Shown here piece after piece: positions 2,264 through 7,162 of a stretch of DNA of 64,000 nucleotides; within the stretch, counting starts at the first letter, position 1; every line of letters starts with the position of its first letter. Source of the DNA: Polynucleobacter meluiroseus (GTDB taxonomy: Bacteria; Pseudomonadota; Gammaproteobacteria; Burkholderiales; Burkholderiaceae). The notes beneath the pieces were generated by a model that did no database searches, was not told the origin of the DNA, and worked only from the letters and a program-made list of their open reading frames with translations. The translations under genes were made by a program, and so were the position numbers. The stretch lies in the NCBI RefSeq assembly GCF_900205755.1, contig NZ_OANS01000003.1, positions 248,001 through 312,000 of the forward strand, in the 5' to 3' direction.

Positions 2264-2533
2264 ATGGCAATCGCCAAAAAGAAAGTTGCTGCAAAGAAGC
2301 CTGCTGCTAAAAAAGTAGCTGCTAAGAAGCCTGCTGCTAAAAAAGTAGCTGCTAAGAAGCCTGCTGCTAAGAAAGTTGCTGCTAAGAAGCCTGCTGCTAA
2401 GAAAGTTGCTGCTAAAAAGCCTGCTGCTAAAAAAGTAGCTGCTAAGAAGCCTGCTGCTAAGAAAGTTGCTGCTAAAAAGCCTGCTGCTAAAAAAGTAGCT
2501 GCTAAGAAGCGTCCTGCTGCAAAAAAAAAGTAA
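2264..2533 (+). CDS. Histone H1-like Ala/Lys/Pro-rich DNA-binding protein (possibly truncated by frameshift)
   Basis: The 89-residue product is almost entirely Ala, Lys, Pro and Val. After MAIAKKK come seven copies of VAAKKPAAKK and a degenerate eighth. Such tails occur in bacterial histone H1-like nucleoid proteins and bind DNA by charge. A Shine-Dalgarno AAGGAG sits 8 nt before the ATG. The frame stops at TAA (2531-2533) straight after an A9 run. The -1 frame continues to 2655 with the same Ala/Lys composition and ends in WPFPTGTRP, a tail I recall from betaproteobacterial H1-like proteins. The full product would then be about 130 residues. Whether this is programmed slippage, phase variation, a real mutation or a base-calling error cannot be told here. 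Confidence 0.85.
   Translation: MAIAKKKVAAKKPAAKKVAAKKPAAKKVAAKKPAAKKVAAKKPAAKKVAAKKPAAKKVAAKKPAAKKVAAKKPAAKKVAAKKRPAAKKK
2285..2494 (+). repeat. Seven tandem 30-bp repeats inside the H1-like gene
   Basis: Seven consecutive 30 bp units each encode VAAKKPAAKK, followed by a partial, altered eighth. Units differ only at synonymous bases (AAA/AAG, GTA/GTT), so the array is close to identical at DNA level. Each unit is itself two similar 15 bp halves. Arrays like this change length by slippage or recombination. Confidence 0.95.
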
Positions 2534-2655
2534 GTAAGCCTATTGCTAAGAAAGCGGGCCCTGCTGCTAAAAAGCCCGCGGCTAAAAAAGTAACTGCTTC
2601 AAAAACCTTGAATCCAGCTGCTGCTTGGCCCTTTCCAACAGGCACCCGTCCATAA
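2530..2655 (+). other. -1 frame continuation of the H1-like gene
   Basis: Read from GTA at 2530, this frame is open for 41 codons to TAA at 2653-2655. It encodes further Lys/Ala/Pro repeats (AAKKPAAKKV) and ends LNPAAAWPFPTGTRP. It would join the upstream frame if ribosome or polymerase slipped by one base in the nine A of 2521-2529. A GC-rich hairpin (GCGGGC 2554-2559, GCCCGC 2574-2579) lies 23 nt past the run, further than the 5-9 nt usual for programmed -1 sites. Composition shows the stretch is, or recently was, coding. Confidence 0.75.
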
Positions 2656-2748: not shown

Positions 2749-3708
2749 CTAAAAAGCAAAGCCAAACGCTGTCTTAAACTGATCAGCAATCTCTGTCTTG
2801 CTCACTTGATGATTTTGCGGCCCTTGATGGGTGATTTTGATGGAGCCCATTAAGCTTGCTAAGCGCCCAGTGGTCTCCCAATCCATATTGTTTTCTAATC
2901 CAAACAGTAGGCCCCCACGAAATGCATCACCGCAACCGGTAGGATCCTGAACCTTAGCTACTGAAACTGGTGGAATTGGAATGCACTTACCGTTAACGTA
3001 AATATCAGCCCCTTCGGCTCCTTTAGTAACAATTAAAGCTTTTACTCTCTCGGCAAGCTTCGACAGGCTCAAGCCAGTGCGTTGAGAAAGCATCTCGCCT
3101 TCATAGTCATTTACAGCGAGATAGGAGGCTAATTCAGTCAATTCAAGCAATTCTTCCCCATTAAACATGGGCAAACCTTGTCCCGGATCGAATACAAATG
3201 GAATGTGCGCTTCAGCAAGTTGGTGACAGTGCTCCCACATCCCTTGTCGACCATCTGGGGCAACGATTCCGAACTGAGCAAGTTTTTTATCGTTTTGAAG
3301 ACGCTCTTCAACTACGGCGGAGACTAAATTGAGATGCGATTCATTCATAGCGCCAGGATGAAAGGCGGTAATTTGATTATTGGTTTGATCTGTAGTGATC
3401 ATGGCTTGCGCTGTAAAGGCCTGATTAATTTGACGAATATGACTCACATCAATTTGAAGTTGCTGCAGTCTCGCCATGTATGGTGTGGCATCGCCACCAA
3501 CGGTTGCCATGATGACGGGGTCACCGCCCAAGAGCTTGAGGTTGTAGGCAATATTGCCAGCACAGCCACCAAATTCACGACGCATCGTGGGAACTAAAAA
3601 GGCGACATTCAGTTTATGTATTTGCTCTGGAAGAATGTGATCAACAAATTGCCCCTCAAAATTCATGATGGTGTCGTAGGCTATAGAGCCACAAATCAAG
3701 CTGGACAT
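2749..3708 (-). CDS. PfkB-family carbohydrate/nucleoside kinase
   Basis: This 319-residue ribokinase-fold enzyme should phosphorylate a sugar or nucleoside with ATP. Seen are the N-terminal GSIAYDTI strand, the substrate-side motif GGCAGNIAYNLKLLGG near residue 50, and near residue 255 the C-terminal signature DPTGCGDAFRGG, whose Asp is the catalytic base of the family. Paralogues are often labelled adenosine kinase, but the substrate cannot be read from sequence. It lies 31 bp downstream of the prmA fusion gene and probably shares its transcript. Confidence 0.88.
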   Translation of the reverse strand: MSSLICGSIAYDTIMNFEGQFVDHILPEQIHKLNVAFLVPTMRREFGGCAGNIAYNLKLLGGDPVIMATVGGDATPYMARLQQLQIDVSHIRQINQAFTAQAMITTDQTNNQITAFHPGAMNESHLNLVSAVVEERLQNDKKLAQFGIVAPDGRQGMWEHCHQLAEAHIPFVFDPGQGLPMFNGEELLELTELASYLAVNDYEGEMLSQRTGLSLSKLAERVKALIVTKGAEGADIYVNGKCIPIPPVSVAKVQDPTGCGDAFRGGLLFGLENNMDWETTGRLASLMGSIKITHQGPQNHQVSKTEIADQFKTAFGFAF

Positions 3709-3739: not shown

Positions 3740-5284
3740 TTAATGAGAATAGAAGATTCTTACCCGATAGCCCGCAGTATTTTGGGGCATTACAAACGCT
3801 AGTTCCGAGTGAATACTTTCCCCAGACGGAGCACCTCGAAGTAAAAAAAGCGGATGCGAGTCTTGCCACGATATAGGCAACCACTCTTGCGGTGAAAATT
3901 GAATCGTTTTAATTTCTGATTCTTCCGCATCAGTAAGGGTAAGCTCTAGGTAAGGAAACAAAACAGGGATAGCTAGACGGTTTTGTATTTCAACTTGCAG
4001 CTTGGATTGATTTGCAGGGATTTTAAGGGGCTCTCCTGAGCTTTCTTGAGCAAGGCTGGCTGAGTTTATTTTCCAAGCAGTGAAATCGCTTACGGAGCGA
4101 TTTATACACCTTAGTGAACGACAGAGTATTTCATCGGTTTTTTGTAATAAAGAAAAAGCACTGACTGCTATTGGAGATGATGTGCCATCAATTCGCGTTG
4201 CCAGCGTCGGCAATAAGGAATTTCTTGAGAGATGCTCGGCGAAAACTAGCAGCACAAGAAAAAAGAGACTGAGTAAAACTAACTTAAGTCTTTTTTTTTG
4301 AGGCGTAGCGATAGATTCAATATGGCTAGGGTTGCTTTGCTCGTTTGATATAGCTGAGAGAAGCTCACCGTGCAGACATACCCAACCTTCACTTTCTTGC
4401 CATACCGATAACTTTAGCCATTGGCTGTAAGTCGCAATCACTTCATCAGCCTGACGCGCAAGAACCCCTGATAGAACAATACGGCCACCAACGCGCATCT
4501 TATTCACTAGGGCTGGCGCAAGAACTTGAAGTGGATTAGCCAAAATATTGGCCATCACAATGTCGTACTTGGTATCCGCTGCCAGTTCAGGAGCATCTTC
4601 ATTGGGCAAAATAAACTGAATCAGTGTGTGGTTGATTTCCGCGTTGCTGCGAGCGGCAACCATTGCTTGCGGATCGATATCGGTACCAACTACGGGATTG
4701 CAACCCAATTTAGCGGCAGCAATTGCCAAAATTCCAGAGCCGCAACCGTAGTCCAAGAGACTCTTATTTTCTAAATCACCATTTTGTTCGAGCCAAAGCA
4801 AGCAGAGATGCGTCGTGGGGTGACTGCCAGTGCCGAAAGCTAAACCCGGATCCACTGCCAGGCAAATGGCATTGGGATCGGTAGGTTTTTCATGCCAAGA
4901 GGGGACCACCCAAATGCGCTTCCCGATTTGAATCGGTGCAAACTGGCTTTGGGTAAGGCGCACCCAATCTTGCTCTTCAACTATTTTTTCACTGGGCTGA
5001 GCAAGATGAAAATCAGATTCTTTTAATGAGGCGAGTAATTCAGGGATGAAGTTAGCCTCACCTGAGTGATCTATTTCGGGATTAAACAGAGCGGTGACTG
5101 CAGATCGGTCCCATGCTTGCACCTCAGGAGAAAGCCCGGGTTCGCCATACAAAGGATTTTCATCGTAGCCGCCTGCCGCTGCATCCTCAACTGTGACGGA
5201 TAGGGCACCCAATTCCAATAAAGCATCCCCGAGAGGTTCTGCGATTTCTGCGGGAACCGTGAAGATCAACTCACGATAAGACAT
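3740..5284 (-). CDS. prmA: Ribosomal protein L11 methyltransferase fused to a membrane-anchored DUF3426 domain
   Basis: Residues 1-~310 are PrmA, which methylates ribosomal protein L11. They include the DPGLAFGTGSHPTT substrate loop (145-158), the SAM motif LDYGCGSG (177-184) and the NILANPL active-site motif (246-252). After a ~20-residue linker comes a KKR cluster, one hydrophobic helix (~334-350) and ~160 residues resembling the C-terminal half of DUF3426 proteins. PrmA is normally soluble and about 300 residues; DUF3426 proteins normally start with a Cys-rich zinc ribbon, and no such cysteines remain here. The frame is continuous through the junction. Predicted topology puts the enzyme in the cytoplasm and DUF3426 outside. 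It lies 28 bp after accC. Confidence 0.88.
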   Translation of the reverse strand: MSYRELIFTVPAEIAEPLGDALLELGALSVTVEDAAAGGYDENPLYGEPGLSPEVQAWDRSAVTALFNPEIDHSGEANFIPELLASLKESDFHLAQPSEKIVEEQDWVRLTQSQFAPIQIGKRIWVVPSWHEKPTDPNAICLAVDPGLAFGTGSHPTTHLCLLWLEQNGDLENKSLLDYGCGSGILAIAAAKLGCNPVVGTDIDPQAMVAARSNAEINHTLIQFILPNEDAPELAADTKYDIVMANILANPLQVLAPALVNKMRVGGRIVLSGVLARQADEVIATYSQWLKLSVWQESEGWVCLHGELLSAISNEQSNPSHIESIATPQKKRLKLVLLSLFFLVLLVFAEHLSRNSLLPTLATRIDGTSSPIAVSAFSLLQKTDEILCRSLRCINRSVSDFTAWKINSASLAQESSGEPLKIPANQSKLQVEIQNRLAIPVLFPYLELTLTDAEESEIKTIQFSPQEWLPISWQDSHPLFLLRGAPSGESIHSELAFVMPQNTAGYRVRIFYSH

Positions 5285-5312: not shown

Positions 5313-6680
5313 TTAGGCTTTGCCGCGAGTAAGGGCTTGAGCTTCTAAGCGCTGCTCTAAGTAGTGGATGCTAGTGCCGCCCTCAATAAATTTAGGGTCC
5401 ATCATGAGTTCGCGATGCAAAGGGACATTGGTAGTAATGCCATCTATAGCTATTTCTGAAAGGGCAATTTGCATCCGTTTAATAGCCTGCTCACGAGTAT
5501 TGCCATAAGCGATGAGTTTGCCGATCATGGAGTCATAATGGGCAGGAACCACATACCCACTGTAAGCGTGTGAATCCACGCGGATTCCGGGACCACCAGG
5601 CATATGCCACGAACCAATGCGACCCGGACTTGGAGTGAATTTGAAAGGGTCTTCAGCATTTAACCGGCACTCAATCGCATGGCCGCGGAAAATAATCTCT
5701 TTTTGGCGATAGGCAAGTTTTAAACCTGCGGCAATACGGATCTGTTCCTGAACGATATCGATGCCAGTGATCATTTCAGTAACAGGATGCTCAACTTGAA
5801 CGCGAGTGTTCATTTCTATAAAGAAAAATTCACCATCTTCATACAAGAACTCAAATGTTCCAGCGCCTCGATAGCCAATTTTTCTGCAGGCTTCAGCACA
5901 GCGCTCACCAATCTTAGCGATCAAGCGTCGGTCAATTCCTGGGGCCGGAGCCTCTTCAATCACTTTTTGATGACGACGTTGCATGGAGCAATCTCTTTCG
6001 CCCAGCCAAACAGCATTGCCATGGGTATCAGCCAAAATCTGAATTTCTACATGGCGCGGCTTCTCAAGAAACTTCTCCATATAGACTTCAGGATTACCGA
6101 AGGCACGACCCGCCTCCTCTTTGGTCATATTGACCGCATTCAATAACGCTGCTTCGGTATGCACAACACGCATACCGCGACCACCACCACCTCCAGCAGC
6201 TTTAATGATGACGGGATAACCCACCCGTTTAGCGGTAGCGATGATCTCTTTGGGGTCATCGTTGGGTAATGCCCCTTCGGAGCCGGGTACACAAGGTACG
6301 CCTGCTTTGATCATGGCGCGTTTTGCAGACACCTTGTCACCCATGAGGCGAATGGACTCCGCTCTCGGGCCAATGAAAGCAAAGCCAGATTTTTCCACGC
6401 GTTCTGCAAAGTCCGCATTCTCAGAGAGAAATCCATAACCAGGATGAATTGCCTCCGCGTCAGTGACTTCAGCGGCAGAAATGATCGCGGGCATACTCAG
6501 GTAGCTCAGTGTGGAAGCAGGAGGGCCAATGCAAACGGCTTCATCGGCAAGCTTCACATATTTAGCTTCTTTATCGGCCGTAGAGTAAACCACCACGGTT
6601 TTAATCCCCATCTCGCGGCAAGCGCGTTGGATGCGAAGAGCAATTTCTCCCCGATTGGCAATCAGAATCTTAGTGAACAT
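5313..6680 (-). CDS. accC: Acetyl-CoA carboxylase, biotin carboxylase subunit
   Basis: AccC carboxylates the biotin on AccB using ATP and bicarbonate, the first half-reaction of fatty acid synthesis. The 455-residue length is standard. Visible are the start [17 protein letters not shown], the glycine-rich ATP-grasp loop [14 protein letters not shown] around residue 160, the metal and substrate site [16 protein letters not shown] around 285-300, and the biotin carboxylase C-terminal domain. It follows accB by 11 bp, the usual accBC operon; the carboxyltransferase genes are not in the window. Confidence 0.98.
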
Positions 6681-6691
6681 GGAGTAATTGC

Positions 6692-7162
6692 TTAAGTGAT
6701 GATGAAAAGTGGCTGATCGTATTCAACACCTTGGCCGTTTTCACACAAGATTTGTTTAATGACACCCTCTTTTTCAGACTCAATTTCATTCAACAGCTTC
6801 ATCGCTTCAATAATGCACAGCGTTTGACCAACTTCCACACTGTCGCCCACTTTGACAAAGTCGGGCGATTCGGGGTTGGGTGCCCGGTAGAAAGTGCCGA
6901 CCATTGGGGAGCGCGCAATGAAGCCGGTTTCTTCAGTGGCAGCCGTTGCTGGAGCGAGAGTCGGAGGTGCTGAATCGTTCACTACGGCAGAATTTGGTGC
7001 CAAATTTTGTGTAGGGATTGGGTTGGCATAAAAGACTTGATTGCTCGATGCAGGGCCCGCATTAACAATGCGCACACGATCTTCCCCTTCATTCACTTCA
7101 AGTTCTGAAATTCCTGATTCTGAGACTAGGTCGATCAGTGTTTTAAGTTTTCTAAGATCCAT
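6692..7162 (-). CDS. accB: Biotin carboxyl carrier protein of acetyl-CoA carboxylase
   Basis: AccB carries the covalently bound biotin between the carboxylase and carboxyltransferase subunits. The 156-residue protein has an N-terminal helical segment ([13 protein letters not shown]), a Pro/Ala-rich linker (~residues 38-80) and a C-terminal biotinyl domain whose [10 protein letters not shown] motif contains the biotinylated lysine K122. The 'thumb' sequence of bacterial AccB lies near 93-102 ([10 protein letters not shown]). aroQ lies 32 bp upstream and accC 11 bp downstream. Confidence 0.98.

Follow-up and report, generated by a model that had tools for sequence, protein, structure and literature searches.

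A conserved run of nine adenines at the junction of a PrmA–DUF3426 fusion in Polynucleobacter, and a proposed recoding that would yield soluble and membrane-held PrmA

In the 64,000-nucleotide window of the Polynucleobacter meluiroseus genome analysed here, one open reading frame on the reverse strand (positions 3740–5284; 514 codons from its ATG start to its stop, no internal stops; 514 aa, 56.3 kDa) joins PrmA, the ribosomal protein L11 methyltransferase, to a DUF3426 domain. The locus raises two questions: is the joined frame real, and does the gene make the membrane-tethered methyltransferase alone, or a soluble one as well?

PrmA, a membrane helix and DUF3426 in one frame

The initial annotation described a complete PrmA followed in frame by one membrane helix and a DUF3426 domain, and Pfam, NCBIfam, Kyte-Doolittle hydropathy and an AlphaFold2 model bear this out. 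PrmA occupies residues 3–306 (4367–5278, minus strand), where PF06325 matches with an E value of 4.6e-83 and 279.6 bits (cut-off 22); TIGR00406 (prmA) scores 225 bits against a cut-off of 183.15, and the top Foldseek matches are the PrmA structures 3cjt and 2nxe (3cjt_A, E 3.6e-18). Judged by family and fold, the domain is complete and is an L11 methyltransferase of predicted activity. The stretches DYGCGSGILAIAA and ANILANPLQ are among those invariant in an alignment of 49 fused sequences. Only one full-length PrmA match is present in the genome, the fused frame itself; four other PF06325 matches above the cut-off are partial (30–43 bits) and were rejected as a second copy.

After PrmA comes a linker (residues 313–330; 4295–4348, minus strand) that has low confidence in the AlphaFold2 model, is probably unordered, and differs in length and letters among relatives. 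The membrane helix follows at residues 335–353 (4226–4282, minus strand), with a Kyte-Doolittle peak of 2.36, and corresponds to a helix at residues 331–361 of the model. The DUF3426 domain takes up residues 359–509 (3758–4210, minus strand; Pfam E 6.6e-10, or 7.8e-11 in a scan limited to the C-terminal part), and its C388 and C393 are invariant among the same 49 sequences. The model of the whole protein, in which a beta-rich domain follows the helix, has a mean pLDDT of 82.6 and a pTM of 0.45, so that the relative placement of the domains is unsure. Predicted alone, DUF3426 gives a good, beta-rich model (pLDDT 90.3), for which no PDB match was found at E ≤0.001 (best 3.2e-3). It is the only DUF3426 match above the cut-off in the genome; a sub-cut-off match of 12 bits contains a stop and was set aside as a second copy.

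Basic residues flank the cytoplasmic side of membrane helices, according to the positive-inside rule. Because the basic QKKRLK, with its KKRLK stretch, immediately precedes the helix, PrmA is predicted to lie inside the cytoplasm and DUF3426 outside it, in the periplasm. The expectation that the fusion, read straight through, would tether PrmA to the inner membrane is supported. The zinc ribbon that usually precedes DUF3426 is gone, as first noted; none is found by Pfam in the fused protein. A single helix followed by a predicted periplasmic DUF3426 is the arrangement of ZitP-type proteins (zinc ribbon, helix, DUF3426), but here the cytoplasmic ribbon is absent and PrmA stands in its place. 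In Caulobacter ZitP, according to those parts of PMC5182063 and PMC5182065 that concern the two domains, DUF3426 can act in pilus assembly from a predicted periplasmic place, and the cytoplasmic ribbon binds PopZ.

By Pfam, the genes for the biotin carboxyl carrier protein (accB, 6692–7162, minus strand) and biotin carboxylase (accC, 5313–6680, minus strand) sit close upstream of the fused gene, accC directly so with a gap of 28 bp, and a pfkB-family sugar kinase (2749–3708, minus strand) lies directly downstream.

Spread of the fusion and order of events

The fused protein has matches in 149 of 151 Polynucleobacter genomes (all but G009 and G092), mostly with 74–81% identity over the whole protein in named relatives. 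Leaving aside one weak match (G140), we read 157 loci. Comparison of the frame that begins in PrmA leaves 154 distinct ones, 146 belonging to the genus and eight to the outgroup. A single frame extends beyond residue 430 in 127 of the 146, a count that includes one frame stopping at 431 (L085), one ending with its contig (L086) and one without the first 28 residues (L050). The remainder comprise 12 loci with separate genes, five split after fusion (L080–L084) and two cut by contig ends (L185, L186). The same open frame recurs in many genomes, including single-contig assemblies, which rules out an assembly or sequencing error at the junction, and the stop or missing segment that might have been suspected at 4,290–4,360 is absent. 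The PrmA–DUF3426 fusion is real and, on this comparison of sequences, it is old and has been kept across Polynucleobacter.

Outside the genus we surveyed 38 loci of the family, and in 31 of them the DNA retrieved included a match to PrmA. All 31 carry a free-standing prmA, none a fusion, and in 29 the next open reading frame carries a CxxC...CxxC zinc ribbon, as expected of relatives with adjacent separate genes. In its whole domain, fold and TIGR00406 assignment the Polynucleobacter enzyme is like PrmA, whereas the C-terminal membrane anchor is an addition relative to these free-standing proteins. A strict search (1e-100) of relatives of G005 matched a single genome from outside the genus, over residues 1–301 only.

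The 12 separate-gene loci (L068–L079) come from genomes of 2.3–3.1 Mb and have a prmA of 308–313 aa with an adjoining DUF3426 frame of 142–161 aa. They form one group (support 99) beside all other members of the genus, in a quickly built tree that, rooted at its midpoint, separates the eight outgroup rows from the genus and has 24 of its 147 inner branches starred. In the 620 bases that follow prmA, no frame of any of the 12 contains a CxxC...CxxC motif, and in the two scanned with Pfam DUF3426 stands alone, with no ribbon. One deletion removing the junction and the zinc ribbon together, the origin first suggested for the fusion, is therefore judged unlikely: since these unfused sisters already lack the ribbon, it was probably lost before the fusion and not through it, the stop being lost later. 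The simplest order for these sequences is thus separate genes with a ribbon, then loss of the ribbon, then fusion. The alternative order, in which the ribbon was lost by fusion and the 12 sisters split again later, is possible but less simple.

Nine adenines and stops in both shifted frames

At the junction the coding strand reads CAA AAA AAA AGA, a run of nine adenines (A9; 4291–4299, minus strand) that we propose as a slippery site; this conserved run, with its stops in both other frames, had been missed in the initial annotation. Exactly nine adenines stand at the junction in 111 of 132 distinct post-fusion sequences, the others having ten (L044), eight (L084) or, in 19 cases, no run of at least eight. 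The codon context is CAA AAA AAA A(G/C)x (QKK followed by S, T or R) in 100 sequences, GTA AAA AAA AAC (VKKN) in four, AAA AAA AAA (KKK followed by L, W or V) in five, and GAA (EKKR) or CTA (LKKK) in one each. Where the residue before the run changes, the following codon differs too, and the count stays nine.

Both frames that a slip would open are closed at once. A TAA at 4284–4286 (minus strand) stops the frame entered with one additional A (333 aa product) and a TAG at 4279–4281 (minus strand) stops the frame entered with one A fewer (334 aa product), 1.3 and 3.0 codons after the run. Among 107 fused A9 sequences, both shifted frames end within eight codons in 94 (101 for the +A frame, 97 for the −A frame), against 20.0 expected from synonymous codon resampling after the run (sd 3.9; maximum of 200 runs, 33). 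When each cluster of similar downstream DNA is represented by a single sequence, the count is 36 of 43 where 7.0 (sd 2.3) would be expected, a value that none of 1000 resamplings attained. The sequences share ancestry, so that these figures are not independent and are not true probabilities. Across all codon positions in the same genes, the both-frame stop share is 15.3%. Immediately behind the run, the +A-frame stop is present in 83 of 100 A9 sequences with this phase and absent from the other 17, while the residues written over it range through LK, FK, PK, IK, VK, SK, TK, SR, PE and FE, with TAA, TAG or TGA as the stop accordingly. To judge from this pattern, what is conserved here is the off-frame stop more than the protein.

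We propose that RNA polymerase slips on the nine adenines of the linker, so that part of the messages would enter a shifted frame and meet an immediate stop. The product would be a short, soluble PrmA of 333–334 aa and 36 kDa, the whole enzyme with a floppy tail, and straight reading would give PrmA–helix–DUF3426 (514 aa, 56.3 kDa), its PrmA part cytoplasmic and its DUF3426 part periplasmic. In the other version of the proposal the ribosome would shift by −1 at the A AAA AAA that lies in frame. We infer the occurrence of slippage, its rate, the two products and their topology from the sequence, and consider it likely that recoding of one sort or the other at A9 provides both a soluble PrmA of about 36 kDa and a membrane PrmA of 56 kDa. 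As to purpose we can offer guesses: a fixed ratio of free to membrane-held L11 methyltransferase or, alternatively, enough free PrmA while an envelope protein with DUF3426 is kept.

Polymerase slippage seems somewhat more likely than the ribosomal version, and is favoured because of the exactly nine adenines and the closure of both frames, neither of which (the exact count, and stops in the other shifted frame) a −1 ribosomal shift would need. A ribosomal shift on A AAA AAA/G with a stop one or two codons on, which forms part of the likelihood just given, is itself only a tentative reading. The heptamer (X XXY YYZ) is in phase in the zero frame of all A9 contexts examined, and the −1 frame stops within two codons in 83 of 100, but RNA folding around the run is weak, with no clear hairpin upstream or downstream in the 18 sequences sampled (mean z −0.64 and −0.99 against base-shuffled sequences).

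The conserved A9 and the stops in both other frames also make a single, always-fused product unlikely. If the 514-aa tethered PrmA were all that the gene makes, which we consider rather improbable, the run would simply follow from having a lysine-rich linker beside the membrane in a gene that prefers AAA, and the off-frame stops would be due to chance or could be mere damage limitation. These genes do encode lysine more often by AAA (1700) than by AAG (550), the run is absent in 19 of 132 sequences, and some lysines of DUF3426 are as purely AAA as those of the run. Yet A9 is scarce in these genomes and could be broken by one silent change, and nine adenines have been kept through several contexts; both-frame stops lie far above the resampled expectation, and the frame-flipped relatives described below keep DUF3426 intact.

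On both strands of the 1,885,561-base genome there are eight matches to A9, one at the prmA junction and one in a histone-H1-like gene; by a simple listing of open reading frames, the other six lie outside open frames or at their very start. One of these (near base 1498 of L247) coincides with the beginning of an open frame of 328 codons (LQKKIYIAGHRGMVG) that resembles a sugar-nucleotide epimerase. In 36 relatives searched, with overlapping matches counted, the number ranges from 3 to 83 (3–31 in 32 genomes of the fused group, 33–83 in four of the unfused group).

Codon conservation was considered as proof of selection for A9, but it is only moderate and by itself establishes little. AAA–AAG changes on the tree number 2 and 3 at the two lysines of the run, 6–17 at six well-filled lysines of PrmA and 14, 3, 3, 0 and 3 at DUF3426-side lysines, so that four of the latter change no more than the run lysines; some glutamines outside the run are as purely CAA as the run's own.

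The 19 fused sequences with no run of at least eight (L055, L059, L160, L161, L163, L169–L176 and L179–L184) are apparently always fused and live with the fusion alone, and make useful natural controls.

In three genomes (L080, L081, L082) the run comes directly after PrmA and a zero-frame stop lies three codons beyond it (KKKLLN), the DUF3426 part continuing in the +A frame (498 aa), a state that rests on the run length in three draft assemblies. In L044, which is sister to them, the run is A10 and the fusion is read in the zero frame. No further flipped-frame member was found among 121 relatives of G005, whose members of the genus had all been seen already. In the flipped genes dN/dS of DUF3426 is 0.20 (L081/L082) and 0.12 (L080/L081), with saturation for L080/L082, compared with 0.07–0.31 in eight fused pairs; because these values are low, DUF3426 is probably still translated there.

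It might be translated from a start of its own, in which case recoding would be unneeded in these three genomes, a reading that we hold to be unlikely. All three have a TTG within the last part of prmA that opens the DUF3426 frame, and after the run L080 has a GTG and L081 a TTG. However, L082 has no ATG, GTG or TTG from the run to the helix in the DUF3426 frame, no clear ribosome-binding site precedes these starts as judged by eye, and from the upstream TTG the A run must be read through anyway. Nor do the five fused sequences that were compared have a common start codon in the linker from which a free DUF3426 could begin.

The different run lengths might also mark a phase-variable contingency locus, at which replication slippage toggles lineages between fused and unfused states. 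A8 (L084), A9 (most) and A10 (L044) do all occur, and the fused L044 is sister to the unfused L080–L082. A switching locus, however, should mix lengths among close relatives, and A9 is found in 111 of the 113 runs of at least eight, with 108 of the 111 A9 sequences passing the junction in the zero frame; we regard such switching as very improbable.

In two single-contig genomes, G017 (L084; 1.6 Mb, A8) and G023 (L083; 1.8 Mb), PrmA is intact and DUF3426 is broken, and a draft genome (G128) has an internal stop in DUF3426. The first two seem to have let DUF3426 go, and from the three together the domain appears dispensable at least in some members of the genus.

A second A9 gene and comparison with known systems

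The other A9 within a gene, at 1.8 kb from the prmA junction, points the same way as the proposed recoding. A histone-H1-like KAAKK gene (2264–2655, plus strand) has its A9 at 2521–2529 (plus strand), followed by G and an in-frame TAA, so that the zero frame ends AAKKK with TAA right behind the run (89 aa, to 2533). With one extra A the product would be 130 aa long and end AAAWPFPTGTRP, its stop ending at 2655. Among 98 distinct loci chosen by their WPFPTG tail, the tail is out of frame in 82, behind A9 in 72, A8 in nine and A10 in one. It is classed as in frame in the remaining 16 (one of which, L191, is truncated where its piece ends and is of unsure class): eight with A10 and one with A11, all relatives from the unfused group, one with A9 (L224) and six with no run, namely five outgroup loci and L049. 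When loci were instead chosen by the run, 99 of 100 distinct ones had WPFPTG within 330 bases and the last had WPFPTV.

It is difficult to see why a tail lying out of frame should be so well conserved if it is never produced, and on this ground we propose the H1-like gene as a second recoding gene. It is the stronger candidate in the genus, and it supports the prmA case. The gene keeps A AAA AAG followed by TAA even where its run is A8 (nine of the 98 loci), a point in favour of the ribosomal shift. Taking both genes together, we lean towards programmed A9 slippage at two sites 1.8 kb apart, which would make PrmA in soluble and membrane-anchored forms, with PrmA replacing the cytoplasmic part of a zinc-ribbon envelope protein, and the H1-like protein with and without its conserved tail; the default frame of the fusion would flip by one A (A9 to A10) with both products kept.

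The junction most resembles dnaX of Thermus thermophilus, where, in the passages of PMC1088944 and PMC5009743 dealing with this gene, A9 with nearby stops in both other frames gives two proteins, tau and gamma, by RNA polymerase slippage. As there, A9 lies late in the coding strand, the unslipped message encodes the long protein and both other frames stop close by. The gene is a different one, however, the added part here is a membrane helix with a predicted periplasmic domain, and slippage here is proposed from sequence. The dnaX gene of Escherichia coli reaches the same end through a −1 ribosomal shift, and by analogy the layout of the prmA junction fits both types. Nine is also the run length at which, according to PMC1088944, a large proportion of genomes give evidence of selection against such runs.

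A membrane protein is already represented among poly-A slippage genes: tssM1 of Citrobacter rodentium and tssM3 of Yersinia are described, in the portion of PMC4256274 devoted to them, as giving two length variants, with an A11 run and slippage of about 20–25% in tssM1. There too, whether the long or the short form is made depends on the poly-A run, and tssM1 and tssM3 differ as to which form requires the slip. Unlike prmA, tssM1 has A11, and these genes encode a secretion component, not an enzyme.

In the open-licence PMC literature searched, we found no report of a PrmA–DUF3426 fusion or of its recoding. According to PMC1088944, genes whose slippage yields a shorter product are difficult to detect comparatively, because no extensive new coding stretch is gained. 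Two traces make the proposed slippage visible here, namely off-frame stops kept through amino-acid changes and frame-flipped relatives. If the proposal is true, Polynucleobacter would provide an example that spans a genus and concerns cellular genes belonging neither to mobile elements nor to secretion systems, and an enzyme that modifies the ribosome would reach two locations from one gene. Annotations that read prmA and the H1-like gene straight through would then, in this genus, list only one of two products for each.
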